DNA from: a virus | Length of the DNA stretch: 34,123 bases | IMG/VR virus record: IMGVR_UViG_3300049445_000261 | Location: 1-34,123 of that record | Direction: 5' to 3' (one strand) | Part shown: positions 22,075-34,123 of the stretch, one piece after another | How positions within the stretch are numbered: the first letter of the stretch is position 1 | Layout of the letters: the number at the start of each line of letters is the position of its first letter | Translations under genes and position numbers: made by a program | The notes under the pieces: generated by a model | The model's input: only the letters and a program-made list of their open reading frames with translations | Database searches by the model: none | What the model was told of the DNA's origin: nothing

Positions 22075-22104
22075 AAGGGGAGCGGGTTGCCGCCCGCTCC
22101 CCTT
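22075..22104 (+). terminator. Hairpin between ssDNA-binding candidate and primase
   Basis: AAGGGGAGCGGG / CCCGCTCCCCTT, 12-bp arms, 6-base loop, no T-run. It lies 14 bases after the stop. Possible partial terminator or transcript-end protector. Confidence 0.6.
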
Positions 22105-22128
22105 CATCGTCTGCCGAGGACCACCCAC

Positions 22129-25026
22129 ATGGACCTAGAGCAGTTCTTGGATCGCATGGTCGCACCGGGAAACTTCCTGGCTCTGTCGACCAAAGGTGAT
22201 CGAGGACTATTTAATTCGTTCTTCCCTCGCGACAACCTCGCCGCCGCAGCCGGACATATACATCATCACTGCGACACACTAGGTCGAGACACATGGTACG
22301 CCGTCGCCAGTTACACTTCCGCAAACCTCGATGGAAATTATTACAAGGGGTTTCGCGGTAAATCAAACACTCAAGCAATCAAATCGTTCTGGTATGACGC
22401 GGACATCTCCCGTGCGGGGGACGGCAAGGACCCATCTAAAACCTACGCCAACGATAAAGAAGTGGCGCAGTGGGTCCGGGGGTTTAGTCAAGCGACTGGT
22501 TTCCCACTGCCAAACGTCTGGATAAAATCCGGCTACGGCATCCATTTATACTGGGTGCTTGTCGACGCGCTGCCTTCGCACGAGTGGGAGCTATACGCTG
22601 AGGCGTTCAAGGCCCTGCTCGTAGCCAACGGCGCGCGCGGCGACATTGGCATAACCACCGACGCCGCTCGAATACTCAGGATACCTGGGACATTTAACTA
22701 CAAGGTGCCGGGCCAGCCCGCACCTTGTTACATCATGCTCGACTACCCCGATCACCCCAACGATGAGGTGTTGTCGAAGCTCGTCACTACCAGTAGTGCG
22801 GCTAGTCTAGGCCAACCAAGCAAGGCCTTTACCCAATCGACATCCATGGCCGCGAACGCCAAGGCGGGGATGTCCGGTCCGCTGCGCGATTTCGAGCAGA
22901 TCTCCCGCAGCTGCGCGCAGGTCGCGACATCCCTCATAGAGAATGGCGCTAACGACGGCAGGAATTTGTGGCGGCACATGCTCACCCTCGCACATTTTTG
23001 TGAGGATGCAAGGCAGTGGTCGCACGAGATAGGCCACACCCATCCGACCTATGACGCGGACAAGACCGACAAGGAGGTCGATCTCGTCGCTCACGAGATC
23101 GACACCAAGGCCGGTCTAGGACCGCCGCTCTGCACCACCTTCAATGCCGAGCGCCCGGGGATATGCCCGACATGTCCGCACTGGGGAAAGGTCAAGTCGC
23201 CTATTGCAGTGGGTCTGCTGCAACAACCGGCTACACCCGACGACCTGCCGTCCGGTTACCGGCGAACCAACGGCCGGCTCGAGTTTCAGGATAAAGAAAC
23301 TAAGGAATGGGAGTGGTTCTTCGAGGGTGATGTCCTCGAAGGGCTTGTCGATAAGGTCGGGGAGCGCACCCGGTTTATGTTCAAGCAGGTGCGTTCCGGC
23401 AAGGTCGATTGGCCTGTGCTGTGGCACGACGAGGTCAACCACAAATCGGGACATGCCGTGCTGTCGCGCGCGGGGGTCGTGTTAAATCACTGGAACGTCA
23501 AACATTTTGTGAGCCTGATCATGGCCTGGATCGACCAGCTTCTAAAAGCAACCCAGCAACTCGACAAGCCGCTACCGAGTTTTGGCTGGGGCTATGAGAA
23601 CGGAGCCTATACCGGGTTCGCCTTGGCTCGTACCTTTTATGGGGCAGACGGGGTCGAGCGTGCCTCGCCCAGTGGTGAGCTGACCTTAGTCAACTACTAC
23701 CGGCCCGAGGGCACACTGCCTGAGTGGCAGGACGCGGCGCGTTTCGTCGCGGCCGACGTACCCGAGATCCACTGTGCTATCGCCGCGTCCTTTGGCGCGC
23801 CCTTGCTCAGGCTTAGCGGCGAGAACGGCGGCTGTGTTTCGTTTGTCGGTCCGTCGGGCGTCGGCAAGTCATCGGCCTTTATCGCCGGTGCGTCTGCTTG
23901 GGGCGACCCGCAGAAGACCATGTTTTCCCTCGACGATACATTTAACTACCAGTCGAAATTTATCGGCGAAACCCAGGCGCTGCCGATCTACTGGGACGAG
24001 GCAAAGATCGTTACTAAGGACCGGCAGGTCGAACTGGTTAACATGCTGCACAAGTTAACCCAGGGGCGTGATAAAGGCCGGCTCACCGCCGACACTAAGA
24101 TGCGGACACCGGGCGAGTGGAGCACCCTCTTCCCGATCTCGACCAACAACTCGATCGCCGACATGGTCGCCGCTCAGGACGGCCACAAGAGCGCGACCCT
24201 GGTCAGGGTGTTGGAGATCGAGATCGACCGGCCGGGGATGAAACCGCTGGCCGAAGCCTCGCAGATCGTCGCGAAACTCAGGATCAACTACGGCCACGCC
24301 GGGCAGATCTACGCCCGCTACATCGCCCAGCACGCCGCCGCCCTGGAAGCGACGGTGACCGAGATGAAGCAACGCTTTATGGACGCGACCTCTCCGCATG
24401 AAAACGAAGAGAGGTTCTACGTATCGAGCGCCGCGTGCATCATGGTCGGCGCGGCCTTAGCCGCTAGGCTAGGGATCATCCAGCTCGACATTCCTGGCAT
24501 AGGTAGGGTCCTCAAGGATGCCATACTACGTGCGCGTAGTATGCGCCATCAGCACGAGCCAAAATCCGACGAGGAAAAGCTGGTCAAGATCCTCGACGAC
24601 TTCTGCAACGACAATATCAATTCAAGGATTGTCACCACCCGCTTCGGTAAGCCGGGTCCGTCTTCGCCCTTATACGCCGGCGAGCCGCGCGAGAAGCTCC
24701 CCCTCAAGCTCGACCTGCCGACACCGGCCTATCACATCGCCGGGACCGACAACGCAATCAGGATAGATCGCGGGCACTTCTCTGACTGGTGCCAGAAGAA
24801 AGGCCACCCGCCCACCCGCTTGGTCGAGCAGATGATCAAGTCATGGAACGGGATCAACTCGCGCGGCTCGCTCGGTTCCGGCACCGCCTATCACAGCGCG
24901 CGGCGGTATTTCTTTCAGCTGTCGTTCGTCAACCCGGCGATCGCCCACATCCTCGACCCCTACGTCGAGTACGTGATCACCCCCAAGACACCCAAAGTGG
25001 TGCCCATCAAAGGAGCTAGACCGTGA
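22129..25026 (+). CDS. Primase-helicase (AEP primase plus P-loop helicase)
   Basis: 965 residues. N-terminal primase of archaeo-eukaryotic type: WYDADIS (Asp90, Asp92), SGYGIHLYW (His139), and AARILRIPGTFNYK. A middle region has a Cys pair (GICPTCPHWG). C-terminal P-loop ATPase: GPSGVGKS (574-581) and YWDEAK (Asp623-Glu624), with SNNSIADM as sensor; similar in layout to DUF927/D5-type helicases. It should lay primers and unwind DNA for the polymerase. Contains palindrome site 19 (TTSS, in the linker after the primase domain) and a separate 9-bp inverted repeat at 24522. Confidence 0.88.
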   Translation: MDLEQFLDRMVAPGNFLALSTKGDRGLFNSFFPRDNLAAAAGHIHHHCDTLGRDTWYAVASYTSANLDGNYYKGFRGKSNTQAIKSFWYDADISRAGDGKDPSKTYANDKEVAQWVRGFSQATGFPLPNVWIKSGYGIHLYWVLVDALPSHEWELYAEAFKALLVANGARGDIGITTDAARILRIPGTFNYKVPGQPAPCYIMLDYPDHPNDEVLSKLVTTSSAASLGQPSKAFTQSTSMAANAKAGMSGPLRDFEQISRSCAQVATSLIENGANDGRNLWRHMLTLAHFCEDARQWSHEIGHTHPTYDADKTDKEVDLVAHEIDTKAGLGPPLCTTFNAERPGICPTCPHWGKVKSPIAVGLLQQPATPDDLPSGYRRTNGRLEFQDKETKEWEWFFEGDVLEGLVDKVGERTRFMFKQVRSGKVDWPVLWHDEVNHKSGHAVLSRAGVVLNHWNVKHFVSLIMAWIDQLLKATQQLDKPLPSFGWGYENGAYTGFALARTFYGADGVERASPSGELTLVNYYRPEGTLPEWQDAARFVAADVPEIHCAIAASFGAPLLRLSGENGGCVSFVGPSGVGKSSAFIAGASAWGDPQKTMFSLDDTFNYQSKFIGETQALPIYWDEAKIVTKDRQVELVNMLHKLTQGRDKGRLTADTKMRTPGEWSTLFPISTNNSIADMVAAQDGHKSATLVRVLEIEIDRPGMKPLAEASQIVAKLRINYGHAGQIYARYIAQHAAALEATVTEMKQRFMDATSPHENEERFYVSSAACIMVGAALAARLGIIQLDIPGIGRVLKDAILRARSMRHQHEPKSDEEKLVKILDDFCNDNINSRIVTTRFGKPGPSSPLYAGEPREKLPLKLDLPTPAYHIAGTDNAIRIDRGHFSDWCQKKGHPPTRLVEQMIKSWNGINSRGSLGSGTAYHSARRYFFQLSFVNPAIAHILDPYVEYVITPKTPKVVPIKGARP
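22785..22798. repeat. 14-bp palindrome site 19 (CACTACCAGTAGTG)
   Basis: Both arms perfect; in the primase-helicase linker, frame Thr-Thr-Ser-Ser. Confidence 0.92.
24522..24543. repeat. 9-bp inverted repeat in primase-helicase gene
   Basis: CATACTACG-TGCG-CGTAGTATG. Shares the ACTAC/GTAGT core with the 14-bp palindrome but with wider spacing; may be a variant site or coincidence. Confidence 0.6.
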
Positions 25027-25533: not shown

Positions 25534-25710
25534 CTAAAATATAGCGGCGCGGTTGCGCGGTCCACGCCGCGTGCTTAGGCCCCAGGAAGTAATCACGCGC
25601 CGCGCCGCCTCGCGCATCTCGCGTGTGAAATGCCGGGGGTCGAGTTCAAACTCGAGCAGTCGCGCAGCGACCTCGGGGTCGGATCGAGTCTGATCTGCTT
25701 CGTCGCTCAC
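25534..25710 (-). CDS. Hypothetical 58-residue protein
   Basis: Not recognised. MSDEADQTRSDPEVAARLLE, then FELDPRHFTREMREAARRVI and a basic end. Starts with GTG overlapping the previous stop (GTGA). Last clear gene of the minus operon. Confidence 0.6.
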   Translation of the reverse strand: MSDEADQTRSDPEVAARLLEFELDPRHFTREMREAARRVITSWGLSTRRGPRNRAAIF

Positions 25711-25868
25711 CCGCGCAGCCCCGGCAGAAAGATAAACAAAGCCAACAATAACACTGCGGTGAAAGCAAGAAACGATCTACCCGCTGTGTACGGCGCGAGC
25801 GCCGGGTAGGGGATAAGCGTCAGGAACCAGAGGAACAAGACGACGACCTCGAGGATCTCGATGATCAT
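25707..25868 (-). CDS. 53-residue two-span membrane protein
   Basis: Two hydrophobic segments: IIEILEVVVLFLWFLTLIPY and FLAFTAVLLLALFIFLPG, joined by a short loop (PALAPYTAGRS). ATG overlaps the stop of the upstream gene (ATGA). Possible small lysis or membrane-modifying protein. Confidence 0.7.
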   Translation of the reverse strand: MIIEILEVVVLFLWFLTLIPYPALAPYTAGRSFLAFTAVLLLALFIFLPGLRG

Positions 25869-26071
25869 TTCTTTCCTCCCCCGCCACCGCCGCGCTTACC
25901 GTGGTAGTTGGGTCCCCCAGGGGCCGCGCCGGCTTTCCGGGCTAGCTCGCCGATGACGCCGCCGGGCACTCCGGCGTCGCGCAATTGGGCTGACCTTCCG
26001 CCGTAGCCCAGCGCGTTGGATTTTCCTTTGTAGGTCCCCGACGTTTTAATCGGGCCTCGTCCCTTCGCCAT
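25865..26071 (-). CDS. 68-residue basic glycine-rich protein
   Basis: MAKGRGPIKTSGTYKGKSN, then ALGYGGRSAQLRDAG, VIGELARKAG and a lysine/glycine tail (KRGGGGGGKK). The shape resembles small basic virion-associated proteins; the start MAK and Lys-rich tail recall the 48-residue protein at 28187. The ATG lies inside the end of the Gp49-family gene (26-base overlap). Confidence 0.68.
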   Translation of the reverse strand: MAKGRGPIKTSGTYKGKSNALGYGGRSAQLRDAGVPGGVIGELARKAGAAPGGPNYHGKRGGGGGGKK

Positions 26072-26378
26072 CTTTGGCTTCCCCCTCGTAGAGGCTCTGC
26101 CGCAGTCTATACCCTTCGAGCGCCCAGATCTGGTCGCGCGCATGAGCGCGGGCGATCTTACGCCCAAGTTCGGGGTCGAAATTATCCGAGCTGGCCGGGG
26201 CGCTGTGGCCCACCACGATAAAGTCGTTGCGCAGGATCAGCGCGCACACGGTGAGCGAGGTGCCGGGGAAGACATAGTAATCCTCCCCGACAATCGCGTG
26301 GTCGATGTCGGCCGGGGTGAGGCGCGGCGCGTTGAGATGCTTGGCTCGAGCCTCGATCTCGACATCGTTCTCGGTCAT
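26046..26378 (-). CDS. Gp49-family phage protein
   Basis: 110 residues. PRLTPADIDHAIVGEDYYVF, then GTSLTVCALILRNDFIVVGHSA, NFDPELGRKIARAHARDQIW and LEGYRLRQSL follow the pattern of the Gp49/gp66-like phage family (not the T4 endonuclease VII of the same name). Function not established. In other phages it commonly lies next to an Acb2-like gene, as here. SD GGAG seven bases before ATG. Confidence 0.88.
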   Translation of the reverse strand: MTENDVEIEARAKHLNAPRLTPADIDHAIVGEDYYVFPGTSLTVCALILRNDFIVVGHSAPASSDNFDPELGRKIARAHARDQIWALEGYRLRQSLYEGEAKDGEGTRPD

Positions 26379-26382
26379 GACG

Positions 26383-26601
26383 CTACTCCGCTCGCGGCGA
26401 CCCGTCTGGATTGCGGGTGATCGCGATGTTAGCCCACATCCCTACCTCACGCAGCTTACGCATCAGGTAGGTCTTATCGGGTCCGTCCGGCACGATCTCG
26501 TCGAGGAAGTTCGCCAGCTCGGCGAACGAGACGCGGCACTCCTGCATCCTGTCGATCTGCGCTTGAGGCGGTTGCAGGTAGGCGAATGTCGAGTCGTGCA
26601 T
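26383..26601 (-). CDS. Acb2-like cyclic-nucleotide sponge (anti-CBASS candidate)
   Basis: 72 residues. The run PPQAQIDRMQECRVSFAELANF, then VPDGPDKTYLMRKLREVGMWANIAITRN, matches the helical-hairpin layout of Acb2/Vs.4-type proteins (RM..R....A..I...P...K......L.E..MWAN.AI). Known members bind cyclic di- and trinucleotide signals and so blunt CBASS defence. Four bases before the Gp49-family gene, a typical pairing. The recognition is by eye and the family is short, so function is likely but not certain. ATG overlaps the stop of the PEP-CTERM gene upstream (TAATG). Confidence 0.75.
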   Translation of the reverse strand: MHDSTFAYLQPPQAQIDRMQECRVSFAELANFLDEIVPDGPDKTYLMRKLREVGMWANIAITRNPDGSPRAE

Positions 26602-27344
26602 TACGCGGCCTCCATACCCCCGCTGTTGCGCCGGCGGTGCCACCAGCCTAGCACACCCAGCCCGGCCAGCGCCGTGCCGAAGATAGCAAGGGTGCCGGGT
26701 TCGGGCACGGCGGCTGCACTCGGCACCGCGATTATGTAGAAGCTCTCCGCGCCGTCCGACGCCATATCCCAGGCAGCGTGAAAGATCAGGTTGTCGCCGG
26801 GCTGCACCCCGGCGTCGAGCAGGTCGAACCCCGAGATCAGGTAATCACCCTTGCCGTTGCCGTTGTTGATGTCGGGCAACGCCAGATTACCCGTGAAGTC
26901 GAAGATCACCCGCTGCCCCGCCGGGAGCGAGAGATCGATCAGCTGGAACGCTTGCAGGTGCTCCTGGTTCATCGCCGTGTTGATGTCGATCACCACCCCG
27001 AAATCAAACCTGGGGTCGGTACCGCCGGCGTTGAGGAAATTTTCCAGGAGGGTGCCGGGGTAGGCGATCGCGTTGTTCTCGTCGTTGTTCAACAGCGGCC
27101 CGCCGCCGAGGATGTTCGTACTAAAGGTATTGAACGAAGTATCGGAACCTGTGTTCGAGAAATTGTTGTACCCGAAATTACTCGGGTTTTGCGCCGTCGT
27201 GCCGCAGATGACGCACGGGTTGGACTGCGACTGCGGCACGGTCTGACCGGCGGGCAGCGCGCCGATGGTCAGGTTGTTGAGCGCGTCGGCATAAGCCGGC
27301 AGCGCGGCGAGGATGATCCCCGCCGCCATTATAATGTGCTTCAT
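26601..27344 (-). CDS. Secreted PEP-CTERM protein 2
   Basis: 247 residues. Signal peptide MKHIIMAAGIILAALPAYA; long extracellular part rich in Asn, Gly, Ser and Thr, with an early CVICG. C-terminal sorting signal: VPEPGTLAIF (from residue 213), hydrophobic helix GTALAGLGVLGWW and basic HRRR. PEP-CTERM tails are recognised by host exosortase and are found on surface/biofilm proteins of Gram-negative bacteria. Overlaps the upstream PEP-CTERM gene by four bases (ATGA). Phage genes with this signal are unusual. Confidence 0.9.
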   Translation of the reverse strand: MKHIIMAAGIILAALPAYADALNNLTIGALPAGQTVPQSQSNPCVICGTTAQNPSNFGYNNFSNTGSDTSFNTFSTNILGGGPLLNNDENNAIAYPGTLLENFLNAGGTDPRFDFGVVIDINTAMNQEHLQAFQLIDLSLPAGQRVIFDFTGNLALPDINNGNGKGDYLISGFDLLDAGVQPGDNLIFHAAWDMASDGAESFYIIAVPSAAAVPEPGTLAIFGTALAGLGVLGWWHRRRNSGGMEAA

Positions 27345-28027
27345 GCGGCTGCTCCATTGTTGAGGTTGCGACGGCGGCGAGCGATAAGGCCGAGACCCAC
27401 CAGCGCCGTGCCGAAGATGACCAACGAGGTCGGCTCGGGCACGGCCTGCTGCTCAACATCGATCGTCAGGTTCGCGCCGCCCTGGCCGTTGGTGACGATG
27501 GTGTAGGCCTCGGTCAGCGAGAACAAGCCCAGGCCCGTGTTGGCCGCAGTCGTCAACGATTGGGTCTGCAGCTGGGCGAAGAAGGTGTCGGTGTCGAGGA
27601 TGTCACCGGGGAGGATCGGGTTCCCCGGCCCGGGGACCGAGTTGTCGGTCTGGACGCTGGTAACCTCGAGGACGTTGTTCACCGAGCCGGTAAACAGATT
27701 GGTCGTCAGCGCCGAGAGAAAGTTAGCGACGCCCGACGCGGTCAAGCCCGTCTCGGTGACCCATAGGGTGAACGACCCGGCGGCCCCCGAATTGTTGACG
27801 TTGATCGTGTTCGAGAACAGTGAGCCGGGGGGCAGCGGCGGCGTGCCGTCAGCCGTGCCGGAGACCGTCCACGAGCCGATATTGGTCGGCCCGAAATTGG
27901 TCGGGCTGGGCGCGGTGGCGGTCTGAGTGTTGCCGAGATTGTCCTCGCCGGTGATGGTGATCGGCAGCGCGTAGGCCGGGATCGCGGTCGAAGCCAGAAG
28001 AGCTGCAGCGGCGAGAAGGTTTTTCAT
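27341..28027 (-). CDS. Secreted PEP-CTERM protein 1
   Basis: 228 residues. Signal peptide MKNLLAAAALLASTAIPAYA; body of Thr/Asn/Gly-rich strands (SFTLWVTETGLTASGVANF). C-terminal VPEPTSLVIF (from residue 196), helix GTALVGLGLIA and RRRR. Its tail shares IFGTAL.GLG with protein 2, so the pair may be duplicates with diverged bodies. First gene of the minus operon; SD GGAG lies 10 bases before the ATG, just after a 10-bp inverted repeat. Confidence 0.92.
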   Translation of the reverse strand: MKNLLAAAALLASTAIPAYALPITITGEDNLGNTQTATAPSPTNFGPTNIGSWTVSGTADGTPPLPPGSLFSNTINVNNSGAAGSFTLWVTETGLTASGVANFLSALTTNLFTGSVNNVLEVTSVQTDNSVPGPGNPILPGDILDTDTFFAQLQTQSLTTAANTGLGLFSLTEAYTIVTNGQGGANLTIDVEQQAVPEPTSLVIFGTALVGLGLIARRRRNLNNGAAA

Positions 28028-28040
28028 AGGTGGGTTCTCC

Positions 28041-28064
28041 GTGTGCGGTACATATACCGCACAC
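28041..28064 (-). promoter_or_regulatory. Inverted repeat upstream of the PEP-CTERM operon
   Basis: GTGTGCGGTA-CATA-TACCGCACAC, 10-bp perfect arms, adjacent to the SD of PEP-CTERM gene 1. Operator or 5' leader hairpin. No T-run, so a terminator is less likely. The remaining gap to 28186 has one 7-bp inverted repeat (TTCCAGA/TCTGGAA, 28141-28161) and palindrome site 21; I see no gene in it. Confidence 0.6.
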
Positions 28065-28168
28065 GCACACCCCGGGCCAGTTTGCTAGCCTAGGTTTTTC
28101 AGCTGGTTAGTCGAGCGGCCCGTACCAAAACTGTAAAGTATTCCAGATACCCGTTCTGGAAAACTTAT

Positions 28169-28342: not shown

Positions 28343-31300
28343 CTAGTAGAACCCGGTTACCGCGCGCACCCCGCGTTGCTCGCGCTGCGGTATCGATAGC
28401 CCGTAAGAGCCGGGCCGCGCCACCGACTCGCGCGCGCGTTTGAGCGCGGTCTGCAGATCCTGCGGCCGGATCAGGATACCCTGGTTGAGCTGCCGGTCGC
28501 GGTTATAGGCCTGCACCGCCGAGCGGTCCTTGCCGCCGCTCGCCACAAACCGCGCCTCGGCGTTGGATTTGGCGCTGCTCATCTCGTGTATCCACTCGTC
28601 ACCGGAAGCACGGTTAGCGCGGAACGCCGAGATTTCTTCCGGGTTAAACCCGAGACCCTGGAAGACCACTGCCGGGGTCGAGATCCGGCTTGCCGGGAGG
28701 ATGGTCTTGCCCTTGCTGTCGGTGATCCCCTGCTCAGCCATCTGGCGCGCCTTGATTATGTCGCCGACGACGCGCGGCGCGAAACCGATGATCGCCTTTT
28801 GAATATTACCGGTCATCGCCTGATGTGCCGCGTCCGCGTATTGCTCGGCCACGTCGCCCGACGCGCCGGTCAGCGCCTGGGCGATCATCCCCGACACCCC
28901 GGCCTTGTCGAAGGTCTTAATCCCCGGCAGATCGGTGGCGTTGGTGATTTTGAGCGAGCGGTGGAGGTCGACCCCGGCCAGCCCGAGCAACCCACGCGAG
29001 AGGAAGGTACTCTTCGTAGGTCCCCAGTTGTCGGTCATCCACTTGCGCATGTCGTTTTCGTAATCGTGCGGCCCGGGCTTACCCTCGAGCCAGTCCCACA
29101 ACCCGGTCATCAGGTTGATCGGCACGCCGAACATATTGGCGGTGGCTCCCACCAGCAGCGCGTGGGTGGCGAAGATCCCGGCGAGAGACTTCAACGCAAC
29201 CGCGCGCTGCTCCGGGTTCTTGATAGCATCGCGTACCAGCACCGCCATGCCCGAGTACATGTTCATCCCGTAGATCTTGTACTGCATCGCCGCTGCCCCT
29301 AGCGGGCCAAGCGGGCCGCGCTCGCTGGCTAGGCGCGGTTTATTCCACGCGCCGTAATTGGGCATCGCCATGTTGGTCATGTTGATCGCGTGGTCGATCG
29401 CGTTTTGGTCGACCTTGCCGTCGTTCAGCTTGCCACCGTTGTCGATCTTCTTCAGCTCGTAGGCCGAGGTGAGGATCGCCATGCGGTTGACCGAGTCGGT
29501 CATGTGCTCGGCGGCGGCGAACAGATCCATCATGTTGCCGGGGACGTGGAGGATACTACCGCCAAACCCAAAGCCGCCTTTTGCCGTCCTTTGGATCTCG
29601 CGTTCCATCGACTGATTGATGAGGCCCCAGTGGTTGGCCTCGGTCATCAGCGCCTTGACCTCACTCGGGTGCATCCCGCTATCGGTGAGACGCTTCTCGT
29701 AGGCCTTGGAGACCATCCAGTCGGCCTGCTTCATCTGACCCCTGACCGCGTTGAGCATGGCCCGGCCGCCGGCGCGCATCCCCGGCGGGGCAAACCGGCC
29801 GATGTTCTTGGTCAGCGCCGCGCCGGCGCGGGCGAACCCGTGCGCGCCGCCGAGATAAGACAGCCCCTGCGACTGCGCGTCCGCCACCTGGACAGCCAGA
29901 TGGGCCGGGCGCATCAGGTGCAGGACAAAACTCGCGCTGGTGAATTTCTTCGCCACGTCACCAAACCGCCGGGCGGTGTCGTCGTGATCGATCGGCAGCC
30001 GCCGGGCCTCGAGTTCCTTCTTAACCTGCTCTGCGGTGATCGCGTCGCCCTCGGGGGGCTTCTTTAACCACTCATGTTGTTGTCTAAGATCCTCGATCTC
30101 GTCCCGGTTGATCGCGAGATCGCCCGCTTTGTAGCGCGTCTCGGCGGCGTCGAGGCGGGTCTGCGAAGCATTGATCTCGTCTTGTGTCCCGGGCCGGCGC
30201 GGCTGCTCGATCTGCCGCACGCGCTTGTCGAGGTTGTTATAGGCGCGGGTCTCCTCGGCTGAGTGCGCCAGATACCCCATGCGCGACGCGTGGCCGGCGA
30301 GGTCGCGCACAAGGTTCATCGAGCCATTTTTCGACGCGCCGTAAATCCCCCGCCGGCGGGCGGCATAGCGTGCCGCCATGGTGTTGATCCCGTGCTGCAG
30401 CACCATTCCACCAAAGGACCGTTGGATTTCCTCGGCCGCGTCGCCCGATATCCCGGCGCGCTCGAGCGCCTTGCCCAACTCGGTCTGCATCCGGGTCGAG
30501 AGAAAGTCCTTACTACCGGTAGTGTCGATCAACCTGATCGGCGAGATATCGACACTGGGATGGGTCTTCTTAAAATCCTCGCGAAACAGCTGCGCTTCGC
30601 CGGGGCGCTCGAAGCGGTGCACCCCGTATTTGTCGCCGGTGAGCTTGTCACCGTGGACAACGAGGTAGTCCCCATGCCGTTGTAAAGAAGTAAAGTTACC
30701 CTGCCGCCAGCCCCGGCTCTGCACCGTCGCCAGAAGTTTCACGATATCGCGCGACGGTGCCCAGTGCTCGCCCATGAGTTTTGCTAGGTCCGAGCCGTCG
30801 GGGTTCTTGGACAGCTCGTCGAGCTTTGTTTTACTGCGGGCAATGTCGGCGATCTCTTTGCGTATCGCGTTGGCGCGCTCCTCGGGGGAGCGTAGTTCAT
30901 TACCTGCGTTGTCGGTGATCTGGCCCAGCTTAGGGTCTCTGCGTACAGCCTCGTCGATCCCGCCGCCCATTGCCCGGTCGACGACGTGCTCCATCCAGGC
31001 CTGCCGCTCGTCGTGGCCGGTGGTGGCGTGATAGTCGACAAGGTTGCTAAATAACTCCTTCTGCCGGTCGGGGAGCTTGTCGTAGCGGCCCTTGAGTTCC
31101 TGCGCGTAGGCGAGGTTCTCCGGCTTGACATGGGTAAAGTCGCCCTTGATGACATCGGCCTCGACCCGCGACACCTCGTTGCGCAAATGCTCGAACCCGT
31201 CGCCGGCGTTTTTGAGGTCCGACACCCAGCCCTTTACCCGGTCGCCGTACCGCGAAAAGGTGTTCGAGCGTGCTTCCTCCTGCATCGACCGGGCGCGGGC

Positions 31301-34123
31301 GATGTCGCGCACCTCGGGGAGGTTCCTGTTCCACTGGGCGATCATCGTCGTCGGGGCCGAGATCAACCCGGCCTCGTTGGCGACGCGCTTTGTACTGATC
31401 GGCGCGCTGGCCTTACGGGTCTTCGCCTCGCGATTGAACCACTGACGCGCGGTCTCGGCGGATCTACTGGCCGCGCCGACAAACCCGTCATTGCCAAAAC
31501 TCTGCAAACGGCTGCCGAGATCGCTGAGTTTCTCTGGTAAATCACCGGGCAACCGGTCGGTGATCTTTCCCCTGACGGTGTCGGGGCTGTAGTAATCCCT
31601 GGCGGTGAGAAGCCCGAACGGATTGTTAGGATCGTGTTCAGCTGCCCTTCTGTCGATTTCCCGGTTACGAAACCGGGTGCCTTCCCGCAGGGTATCAGTC
31701 AGCGGACGCAGTGCGGCGTCGAGCACGCTCACCCGGTCGGGAGTGAGGCCAAAGATCCTGCCAATGATAGTTTTGAAAGTGTCGTAAAGCGACGGCCGCC
31801 GGCCCGGCGCGACCGGCATCATGTCGAGATTTTTGAGTTCACGCAGCAGGACCGGGCTAGCCTCTTCGCGCGCCATCGCCCCTAGTATTTCAGGGTCGGT
31901 CATCAGCATCGTGACCAGTTCCTCATGGTCGCGATACCTGCCGCCTGCGCCTTCCTCGGACGACAGCGCGTAATCCGACGCGCTCTTTAACCTCGAGCCA
32001 TCCTCCATGTTCGCGCGCATCCGCGTCACTTCACGCGCGAGTGCGTCGAGGCTCTGGTAAATCTGACGCTCGCGGGGGGTGACTACCTCACCATTACGCA
32101 GGCGCGTACCGACATCGCGCAGGAAATCCACCGTGCCGGCGTGCACACCCTCGTGTAGGATACCCCGTGTCGTGACCGGCATTTCGGGGTTGATGTGTAT
32201 CCTGTCGGTGGTCGAACTATAGGATGCGCCAGGGTGATCGAAGTCACCCCTGACCTCGATGCCGGGTCTGAGGGCTTGTCGCAGGATACGCGCCAACGAG
32301 ACAAAGTGCGGCGCAATGCGGCGCACGCCGGGGCTGTTGACGATATCGTTGAGGTAGTCGTGCAGATCGTGATCCGTCCCGCCCGATGCCGACTCGTAGG
32401 CGCGGTTGCCAGTCTCGAGATTTACCGCCGGTGAGGCTTCTGCTTTCGTGCGCCGGTCACTACCTACCTCGTCAAACGACCCATAAGTATTGGCGTTCTT
32501 GTCGCCCTGTTTCTCGATCCGGTAGAGATCCTCGTCGCTGTGGATTGTCGATGCTTTGTCAGTACCGGAGCGTGAACTTAATTCCCCGATGATCTGGCTG
32601 CGCAGCCTGCGCAGCGCCGGCAGGGTCTCCTCGGAACCTCGGCGGACGTTCAGGATATGATCGGACGCCGCCTGCCACAGCTGGCCCTCCTGGACCTTGG
32701 TCAGCGGCTTGCCTGACTTACGTGCGTTCTCGATGATCTGACCAACCTGCGCGTTGGCGTCGGCGATCACCGCCTTGTCGGACGGACCCTTCTCGGCCTG
32801 GGTGATCCGGTCGTGCAGGTAGTCGAGAAAAGTCCTGAACCGGCGCGGCATCCCGCCCTTGCGGGTAGGTTCGCCGTATGCGTCGTAGATCTCCCCGGGA
32901 GTGCGCATCCCCGGGTCCTTGAGATAGTCGGTTACCAGGGGTTCGGCTACGTCGCGCACCTTGTCGGTCGAGGTCTTGGCGCGCTGTTCGAGCGCCGACT
33001 CCTTGTTCTCGCCGACGGTCTCGGTGGCTCTTGTCTCGGTCGGCACTTCCTTGGCCTCGGCCTCGGAAACGCTCTCGATGTCCTCGAGACCCCGGCTGAT
33101 TTTACGTGCGCCGGCGCGGGTTGCCCCAGCTTCTTTTAAGTCCTGGGCGATCTGCGCGGATTTTTCCTTATCGGCGGCGCGGGCTTTGGCTTCGGCCTCC
33201 TCGCGTGCCAGACGCTTAATGGTATCCGCATTGTCCTCGACCGCCGCTATCTTGCTGCGCTCGAGGCTGCGCACCAGACTAGCGGCCTTAGTTACCAGCG
33301 CCGCGTCAGTCGACCGGTTGTCGCCCGCCGAGCTGGCCCGTGCCCGGTCGGCGATCGCCTGGGCGCGCTCCTGGGTAGTGTACCCGCCCTTAGGCCCGTA
33401 GGTCGTGCCGTCCGGCCCGGTGACGTTCCACCGCCCAGGCGTAATCTCGCGCACGCCAAAGGTGCGACTCGGCATGACCGGCGCTTCGGCCGGACGCGGC
33501 GTGCCGGCAGGCAAGACCTTAGGCACGGAAGCCTCGGCCGTAGTCTTAAGCTCAGCGGCGATCGGCGGAGGTTCGACCCGGGCTTTGCCTTGGTCGACCG
33601 CCGCCTGGAGCTTGCCACGGCGGGTCACGACGACGGGAGGTTTAGCTTCAGGTGTGGTAACCTCGGGGGCCGCACTACCGGTAGTGGCAGCTGCTTCGGC
33701 CACTGGCGCTGCTGCCTTCGGTTCAGGCGGCGGGGCTGCCTCCGCTGATTTTTCCCCTCCGGCGGGGGCTGTCTCCGCTTCCGCTTTTGCCAGCACGTCA
33801 CCGGTCGTCGCCATGCGCGGCTCGACCACAGGACGACCAGCCTGAGCCACTGCCCGGTCGGCGCGGTCGTGCGCCATCTGCAAGGCTTCCGCCGGCGAGC
33901 TGCCGACGCCCAGCACATCACCGGTGTGCTTGACCACCCATTGACCGGGTGTCGCGTCGTCCGGCTCGACCGTCCATCCGGTGCGGTCCATCAACTTAAA
34001 AGGTAACTGCGGTTGTTCCTCGAGTGGCAAGCCGCGCCCGGTCGGCGGAGCCTCGGCAGGCGGCGTGCCGGGCGGCGGCTGGCGCAGTGGGAGTTCACCT
34101 TGCGCTGACGGCGGCTCGACCTC
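28343..34123 (-). CDS. Giant virion/ejection-type polyvalent protein (5' end outside window)
   Basis: At least 1926 residues; the frame is open to the window edge, so the true start lies beyond. Numbering from the TTG at 34030: two related small units around Trp31 and Trp201 (W.V...G....G.....AEALQMAHDRA and WNVTGPDGTTYGPKGGYTTQERAQAIADRA) separated by Ala/Pro-rich linkers; long coiled-coil regions; an HExxH site, HEGVHAG, at about 626-632 (metallopeptidase-like); helical middle; and a C-terminal third with weakly hydrophobic helices (FVLHLMRPAHLAVQVADAQ, GPLGPLGAAAMQYKIYGMNM) like PLxRFG-type internal proteins. Such proteins are ejected with DNA or line the head. Carries palindrome sites 22 and 23, both read as TTGS. 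Confidence 0.82.
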   Translation of the reverse strand, partial: EVEPPSAQGELPLRQPPPGTPPAEAPPTGRGLPLEEQPQLPFKLMDRTGWTVEPDDATPGQWVVKHTGDVLGVGSSPAEALQMAHDRADRAVAQAGRPVVEPRMATTGDVLAKAEAETAPAGGEKSAEAAPPPEPKAAAPVAEAAATTGSAAPEVTTPEAKPPVVVTRRGKLQAAVDQGKARVEPPPIAAELKTTAEASVPKVLPAGTPRPAEAPVMPSRTFGVREITPGRWNVTGPDGTTYGPKGGYTTQERAQAIADRARASSAGDNRSTDAALVTKAASLVRSLERSKIAAVEDNADTIKRLAREEAEAKARAADKEKSAQIAQDLKEAGATRAGARKISRGLEDIESVSEAEAKEVPTETRATETVGENKESALEQRAKTSTDKVRDVAEPLVTDYLKDPGMRTPGEIYDAYGEPTRKGGMPRRFRTFLDYLHDRITQAEKGPSDKAVIADANAQVGQIIENARKSGKPLTKVQEGQLWQAASDHILNVRRGSEETLPALRRLRSQIIGELSSRSGTDKASTIHSDEDLYRIEKQGDKNANTYGSFDEVGSDRRTKAEASPAVNLETGNRAYESASGGTDHDLHDYLNDIVNSPGVRRIAPHFVSLARILRQALRPGIEVRGDFDHPGASYSSTTDRIHINPEMPVTTRGILHEGVHAGTVDFLRDVGTRLRNGEVVTPRERQIYQSLDALAREVTRMRANMEDGSRLKSASDYALSSEEGAGGRYRDHEELVTMLMTDPEILGAMAREEASPVLLRELKNLDMMPVAPGRRPSLYDTFKTIIGRIFGLTPDRVSVLDAALRPLTDTLREGTRFRNREIDRRAAEHDPNNPFGLLTARDYYSPDTVRGKITDRLPGDLPEKLSDLGSRLQSFGNDGFVGAASRSAETARQWFNREAKTRKASAPISTKRVANEAGLISAPTTMIAQWNRNLPEVRDIARARSMQEEARSNTFSRYGDRVKGWVSDLKNAGDGFEHLRNEVSRVEADVIKGDFTHVKPENLAYAQELKGRYDKLPDRQKELFSNLVDYHATTGHDERQAWMEHVVDRAMGGGIDEAVRRDPKLGQITDNAGNELRSPEERANAIRKEIADIARSKTKLDELSKNPDGSDLAKLMGEHWAPSRDIVKLLATVQSRGWRQGNFTSLQRHGDYLVVHGDKLTGDKYGVHRFERPGEAQLFREDFKKTHPSVDISPIRLIDTTGSKDFLSTRMQTELGKALERAGISGDAAEEIQRSFGGMVLQHGINTMAARYAARRRGIYGASKNGSMNLVRDLAGHASRMGYLAHSAEETRAYNNLDKRVRQIEQPRRPGTQDEINASQTRLDAAETRYKAGDLAINRDEIEDLRQQHEWLKKPPEGDAITAEQVKKELEARRLPIDHDDTARRFGDVAKKFTSASFVLHLMRPAHLAVQVADAQSQGLSYLGGAHGFARAGAALTKNIGRFAPPGMRAGGRAMLNAVRGQMKQADWMVSKAYEKRLTDSGMHPSEVKALMTEANHWGLINQSMEREIQRTAKGGFGFGGSILHVPGNMMDLFAAAEHMTDSVNRMAILTSAYELKKIDNGGKLNDGKVDQNAIDHAINMTNMAMPNYGAWNKPRLASERGPLGPLGAAAMQYKIYGMNMYSGMAVLVRDAIKNPEQRAVALKSLAGIFATHALLVGATANMFGVPINLMTGLWDWLEGKPGPHDYENDMRKWMTDNWGPTKSTFLSRGLLGLAGVDLHRSLKITNATDLPGIKTFDKAGVSGMIAQALTGASGDVAEQYADAAHQAMTGNIQKAIIGFAPRVVGDIIKARQMAEQGITDSKGKTILPASRISTPAVVFQGLGFNPEEISAFRANRASGDEWIHEMSSAKSNAEARFVASGGKDRSAVQAYNRDRQLNQGILIRPQDLQTALKRARESVARPGSYGLSIPQREQRGVRAVTGFY
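30511..30524. repeat. 14-bp palindrome site 22 (TACTACCGGTAGTG)
   Basis: One mismatch in the outermost base; in the giant virion gene, minus-strand frame Thr-Thr-Gly-Ser. Confidence 0.88.
33673..33686. repeat. 14-bp palindrome site 23 (CACTACCGGTAGTG)
   Basis: Fully self-complementary; in an Ala/Pro linker of the giant virion gene, frame Thr-Thr-Gly-Ser on the minus strand. Confidence 0.93.

Follow-up and report, generated by a model that had tools for sequence, protein, structure and literature searches.

Descriptions of exosortase sorting treat it as a bacterial system, in which the role of most cargo is unknown. The bacterial cargo proteins combine a signal peptide, a diverse body and a C-terminal tail in which a PEP motif is followed by a helix and basic residues; tails from one species resemble each other more closely than they resemble those of other species (Haft et al. 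2006, PMC1569441). The two proteins considered here, P1 and P2, share this architecture, and their tails are alike within a phage as the bacterial tails are within an organism, but they are viral, lack an accompanying exosortase gene and are encoded in phage operons that also contain genes for virion and counter-defence proteins. A search of open-access full texts turned up no paper describing PEP-CTERM proteins encoded by phages. A second point of reference is provided by T5 Llp and the Cor-type exclusion lipoproteins, which are likewise phage-made, exported and envelope-anchored, and whose gene also adjoins a virion gene (PMC9586334); there, however, the anchor is a lipid and FhuA is blocked from the periplasm, whereas for P1 and P2 the anchor would be an exosortase-type signal.

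Two adjacent genes with sorting tails in a phage genome

The window, that is the whole stretch of 34,123 bases that was analysed, is an IMG/VR record cut on the left within a terminase and on the right within a giant gene, and encodes a terminase fragment, an ATPase, an HNH endonuclease, a DNA polymerase, an exonuclease, a helicase and a primase. By polymerase and giant gene its closest cultured kin are phages of about 60 kb infecting Rhizobium and Pseudomonas, and it represents about half of such a phage, being collinear with Rhizobium phage RHph_TM27A and with an IMG/VR phage of 58,956 bases (G026, which contains the locus L044). The latter is the closer relative, with identities of 63% for the terminase, 54% each for polymerase and helicase and 26% for the giant protein. 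RHph_TM27A and the Pseudomonas KPP25-like phages of about 60 kb have a DNA polymerase similar to that of the window, but neither P1 nor P2 has a homologue in cultured phages (50,697 records). In RHph_TM27A the position of the window's primase/helicase is occupied by a gene labelled 'putative integrase' (L102 31349-34432, EVB29_077), a label that is possibly a mis-annotation.

Since PEP-CTERM proteins are otherwise known from bacteria, and some IMG/VR records have bacterial flanks, the pair could be imagined to be bacterial DNA that was misassembled or misclassed as viral. This is hardly credible, because phage genes stand on both sides of the pair in the window and at many other loci, the GC and GC3 of P1 and P2 resemble the remainder of the phage, and a genome scan of 84,980 species yielded no full P2 homologue. 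For the window itself a bacterial island or misassembly is ruled out by synteny with related phages which, together with the terminase, polymerase, helicase and primase genes, upholds the phage origin assumed by the first-pass annotation.

Table 1. Features of the sorting-tail locus and its borders (positions in the window).
Feature	Position	Strand	Evidence or remark
Primase/helicase gene, other border of the accessory slot	22087..25026	+	
53-aa single-TM protein	25707..25868	-	by-eye similarity to a G026 ORF
Phage N4 Gp49/Sf6 gene 66 family protein	26046..26378	-	PF13876, 94 bits; phrog_322
Acb2/Tad1-hairpin protein, 72 aa from ATG	26383..26601	-	PF24729, 40.7 bits (cut-off 27); longer GTG ORF to 26643
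TAATG overlap, P1 stop/Acb2 start	26599..26603	-	sequence
P1 secreted PEP-CTERM protein, 247 aa	26601..27344	-	PF07589, TIGR02595, family alignment; large phage family
P1 PEP-CTERM sorting tail	26628..26708	-	TIGR02595, E 2.6e-5
P1 signal peptide, aa 1-19	27288..27344	-	by inspection
ATGA overlap, P2 stop/P1 start	27341..27344	-	sequence; translational coupling likely
P2 secreted PEP-CTERM protein, 228 aa	27341..28027	-	PF07589 and TIGR02595 over cut-offs; homologues at 6 IMG/VR loci
P2 PEP-CTERM sorting tail	27368..27442	-	TIGR02595, E 3.6e-7
P2 signal peptide, aa 1-20, MKNLLAAAALLASTAIPAYA	27968..28027	-	by inspection
Perfect palindrome, 11-bp arms, CGTGTGCGGTA-TATG-TACCGCACACG	28040..28065	.	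just upstream of the P2 ribosome-binding site
48-aa Lys-rich ORF between giant gene and P2	28187..28333	-	
Giant virion-associated protein, 5' end lost at window edge	28343..34123	-	

The first-pass annotation, made from the letters alone, had read two adjacent minus-strand genes as encoding secreted PEP-CTERM proteins and had recommended a profile search. Both open reading frames are present (Table 1), and both tails clear the cut-offs of PF07589 (20.7 bits) and TIGR02595 (16 bits), the C-terminus of P1 with 22.9 and 20.9 bits and P2 with 23.5 and 23.2 bits, respectively; when the record is searched with TIGR02595 at the DNA level, just these two tails are returned. Judged by eye, each N-terminus has the expected organisation of a signal peptide, with Lys, a hydrophobic core and an AYA site, and a hydrophobic start like that of P2 is also present in the homologues of A4. 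The mature bodies are nearly devoid of Lys and Arg, P1 being rich in N, G and A and P2 in T, G, L and N, so that the original description of the bodies as Thr/Asn/Gly-rich is fair for P2 and only roughly so for P1. Conserved motifs of the P1 family include PC[VI]ICG, FG, DxN, GxGxxDY and DGxxSF. With curated cut-offs cleared, the architecture kept in homologues and dN/dS far below 1, the two tails are beyond chance.

The reading of the pair as part of a phage operon between virion and anti-defence genes likewise stands, with the giant virion gene upstream and a PF24729 gene downstream. The ATGA and TAATG overlaps make a single polycistronic, translationally coupled unit P2-P1-Acb2-gp49 likely. 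The Acb2/Tad1-hairpin product is, from its profile match, a probable anti-CBASS cyclic-nucleotide sponge and hence a CBASS counter-defence protein, and the placement of its start codon within the P1 stop ties a counter-defence gene to the surface-protein genes. A scan for promoters and terminators gave no signal exceeding shuffled sequences, and PADLOC matched neither P1 and P2 nor their neighbours. The palindrome ahead of P2 occurs once in the window, with none expected, and was not found upstream of relatives; it is a possible operator or RNA hairpin. The C-terminal part of the giant protein resembles proteins of Rhizobium-group and Pseudomonas phages annotated as 'DarB-like antirestriction'.

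Accessory position, spread and exchange of parts

The slot between the giant gene and the primase differs among the collinear phages. It holds P2, P1, Acb2, gp49 and small open reading frames within about 2.6 kb in the window, one 84-aa frame and a short membrane frame within about 670 bases in G026, and six different small genes in RHph_TM27A, in which TerL, the replication genes and the giant gene are ordered as in the window. A short single-TM protein ending in FIF.PGLR, encoded at 25707-25868 in the window and after 51187 in G026, is apparently conserved at the slot. The P1 homologue of G026 (38% identical) is found elsewhere, between the portal and major capsid genes. This displacement, and the variable slot content, indicate that the gene is accessory and was independently acquired or moved in related phages; both characteristics of moron genes, namely presence or absence between conserved genes and movement independent of the backbone, are seen here, the former in the slot and the latter in P1 proteins that are near-identical on unrelated backbones (see below).

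The advice to look for homologues in other phages proved well founded, since an alignment query returned 135 IMG/VR stretches encoding P1, of which 80 were retrieved, and six loci encoding P2; P1 was not found in plasmids. A tail-only tblastn search of phages and plasmids gave no match, probably because of low-complexity filtering. In many of the IMG/VR records, which are mostly fragments, P1 lies between terminase and capsid genes, and in several groups it directly follows the terminase, ahead of HNH, portal or protease-capsid genes; the terminase of L065 is an HK97-like TerL. Elsewhere P1 adjoins portal, HNH, integrase or endolysin genes, the last in L014 and its relatives.

A broader view is given by a strict PEP-CTERM DNA pattern, which matched at least 120 IMG/VR stretches. 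Because some of these may be bacterial flanks, they are a lead and not a census. Among the matches listed, all 123 motif copies are in frame near a C-terminus, 104 of them after a signal-peptide-like start, and the bodies fall into 28 clusters. Three consecutive PEP-CTERM-tailed frames occur in L203 (2880-5026, minus strand), and tandem pairs in L143, L161, L164 (a 228 kb contig), L175, L186 and L201.

The position of P1 between terL and the portal or capsid genes (L018, L021, L069, L082 and relatives), or between portal and major capsid gene in G026, might suggest that P1 and P2 are minor structural proteins of the virion. We consider this very improbable, given that both proteins have a signal peptide and a sorting tail, that the position of the gene differs even among collinear phages, and that P1 and P2 replace each other despite unrelated bodies. 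This last point rests on L010 and L006, in which TerL (78% identical) and capsid (90% identical) enclose P1 in the one and P2 in the other, and the two therefore appear interchangeable. Conversely, L069 and L082 have P1 proteins that are 96% identical and unrelated TerL proteins.

Exchange extends to parts of genes. L004 and L008 are mostly 93-100% identical at the DNA level over the flank, the P2 signal peptide, the P2 tail and P1, but between these near-identical ends the P2 body falls to about 50-60% identity. Similarly, the P1 neighbours in L016 (9300-9998) and L017 (9258-10004) have conserved signal peptides and tails and unrelated bodies; here the body was swapped and the sorting modules on either side stayed conserved. 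Pairwise dN/dS values for P1 of 0.06 to 0.41, mostly 0.1-0.25, imply purifying selection on a working protein.

As to origin, a search of relatives of a Desulfuromusa genome returned for the most part tail matches, plus a few remote body relatives. The remote bacterial PEP-CTERM proteins L097, L098 and L092 carry the spaced motifs of P1 along the body, which suggests an old capture from bacteria. These bacterial relatives would also suit lysogenic or pseudolysogenic conversion, in which the sorted proteins would alter the biofilm or exopolysaccharide matrix of the host, to the benefit of both host and phage, and without any block of adsorption. In the same direction point the integrase genes that adjoin P1 in L013 and L075, and hence mark some carriers as temperate, and the requirement of the bacterial PEP-CTERM protein PepA for floc formation (PMC9850573). 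The window, however, contains no integrase gene, and many phages have P1 within a late head operon, which suggests lytic expression. Nor does the comparison with PepA extend beyond the tail: whole P2 scores 36.5 bits against the PepA flocculation model NF033554, chiefly through its tail and far below the cut-off of 80, and tail-less P2 has no match, so that membership of P2 in this family was rejected. Conversion is accordingly an unlikely, if still serious, account of the pair.

Sorting-tail classes on a constant body

Fifty-five P1-family proteins were aligned and a tree was built from the body alone, on which tail classes were assigned by hand from motifs. The family as a whole has tails of PEP, VPLPA-type, PEPxxWA and GPIVGAG classes, and the NCBIfam models match 26 of the 55 as VPLPA-CTERM (TIGR03370), 18 as PEP-CTERM, 2 as PEPxxWA-CTERM (NF035944) and 3, not individually named, as EppA, the exopolysaccharide-associated small membrane protein (NF046088). 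Tails of other classes thus stand on the same body in other members of the family, whereas P1 and P2 of the window both bear the PEP-CTERM class. The tail class changes ten times on the body-only tree, with a minimum of three changes. Tails of the form VPGP[IV]VGAG[IL]PGL occur in the P1 members L040, L060, L075, L076, L079 and L084, and these, with the EppA-type tails, hint at what may be a further sorting class.

A second tail-bearing gene, with a body unrelated to that of P1, often adjoins P1. This neighbour is P2 in the window, L004 and L008, and belongs to another family in L017, L029, L031 and L051. The neighbours in L041 and L059 are relatives of the FxDxF proteins, their bodies matching the FxDxF family PEP-CTERM model NF038126 below its curated cut-off. 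Other phages thus combine P1 with a protein akin to a known bacterial PEP-CTERM family, a type absent from the window. Homology between P1 and P2 themselves is unsupported, as an hhalign comparison of their profiles aligns the tail alone. Within one phage, the tails of such neighbours are more alike than in shuffled pairs (16 curated pairs, p = 2e-5), and this concordance also holds in the 13 PEP-class pairs alone. The similarity could come in part from gene conversion between neighbours. Taken together, concordance and class switching imply that the tail type is largely a property of the phage, and presumably of its host, rather than of the protein.

No exosortase gene was detected in any of 46 related phage records, and the host would therefore have to supply the enzyme. 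A tail class that goes with the phage, whatever the protein body, fits the prediction that host sorting machinery is used. This proposal of the first-pass annotation has thus gained partial support, from the occurrence of the genes in many independent phages and from a tail class that tracks the phage.

Structure models and a possible role at the host surface

The AlphaFold (AF2) model of P1 has a beta-rich body and a single C-terminal helix (residues 216-240) at a moderate pLDDT of 70.9. It has no significant structural match, its BFVD matches, mostly plant-virus proteins with E above 0.001, having been discarded, and the conserved residues of P1 gave no pointer to a known glycan site. P2 is modelled as a beta-sandwich with a C-terminal helix (199-222; pLDDT 73.3). 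Foldseek likens it to CBM61, CBM22, CBM27, a hyaluronan-binding module and phage tailspikes, and the best PDB matches include glycan-acting enzymes; E-values are 1e-5 to 1e-3 and the probability is about 1, but TM-scores are low (0.3-0.46).

One C-terminal helix per protein is also what plain membrane anchoring would need, with P1 and P2 held on the periplasmic side of the inner membrane and blocking DNA entry or a tail lysin without any exosortase. Precedents exist in T5 Llp (PMC9586334) and T4 Spackle (PMC7677548), known exclusion proteins that act in the periplasm or membrane. Simple anchoring, however, would have no need for recognised sorting motifs, for class switching on a fixed body or for matched tails in unrelated neighbours, and we regard it as improbable.

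A phage-made, host-sorted surface protein is the most economical account of these sequence data. On this account P2 and P1 are accessory, or moron, genes, probably expressed as a unit with the Acb2 counter-defence gene, whose products would leave the cytoplasm by way of their signal peptides. A host exosortase would then recognise the C-terminal PEP-helix-Arg tail, and the proteins would come to lie either at the outer surface or within the exopolysaccharide layer, where the displayed beta-rich bodies would most likely bind surface glycans. We infer this processing, location and binding. With P1 and P2 bound to glycans, infected cells and debris could adsorb fewer rival phages and fewer progeny of the phage itself. 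Limitation of adsorption is put forward as the likeliest benefit on the model of T5 Llp and similar exclusion proteins, and such receptor shielding or superinfection exclusion is the least certain element of the account; in a shield for variable receptors, one would sooner expect a varying body than the conserved one of P1. As a whole, surface proteins sorted by a host exosortase, probably glycan-binding and limiting re-adsorption, are in our judgement the best explanation and a reasonably probable one. Many unrelated phages seem to use the same strategy, in which the body is kept and the tail is exchanged for one that presumably matches the host.

Judged on sequence, exosortase-type cargo would thus seem to be also viral, modular and widespread, in a sorting system not previously linked to phages. 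The more general proposition, that of a widespread, undescribed class of viral cargo in which a conserved glycan-binding or shielding body is joined to an exchangeable, host-suited tail, with exosortase as a host factor for surface takeover, is one on which we are evenly divided. Tail-class switching on a constant body amounts to a domain-swap experiment done by nature, which bears on the question of which tail is read by each exosortase, and a function in surface takeover becomes directly testable in exosortase-positive laboratory bacteria. The tail class is also a possible signal for host prediction in uncultured phages and, if the proposal is true, would be a readable fingerprint of the host.
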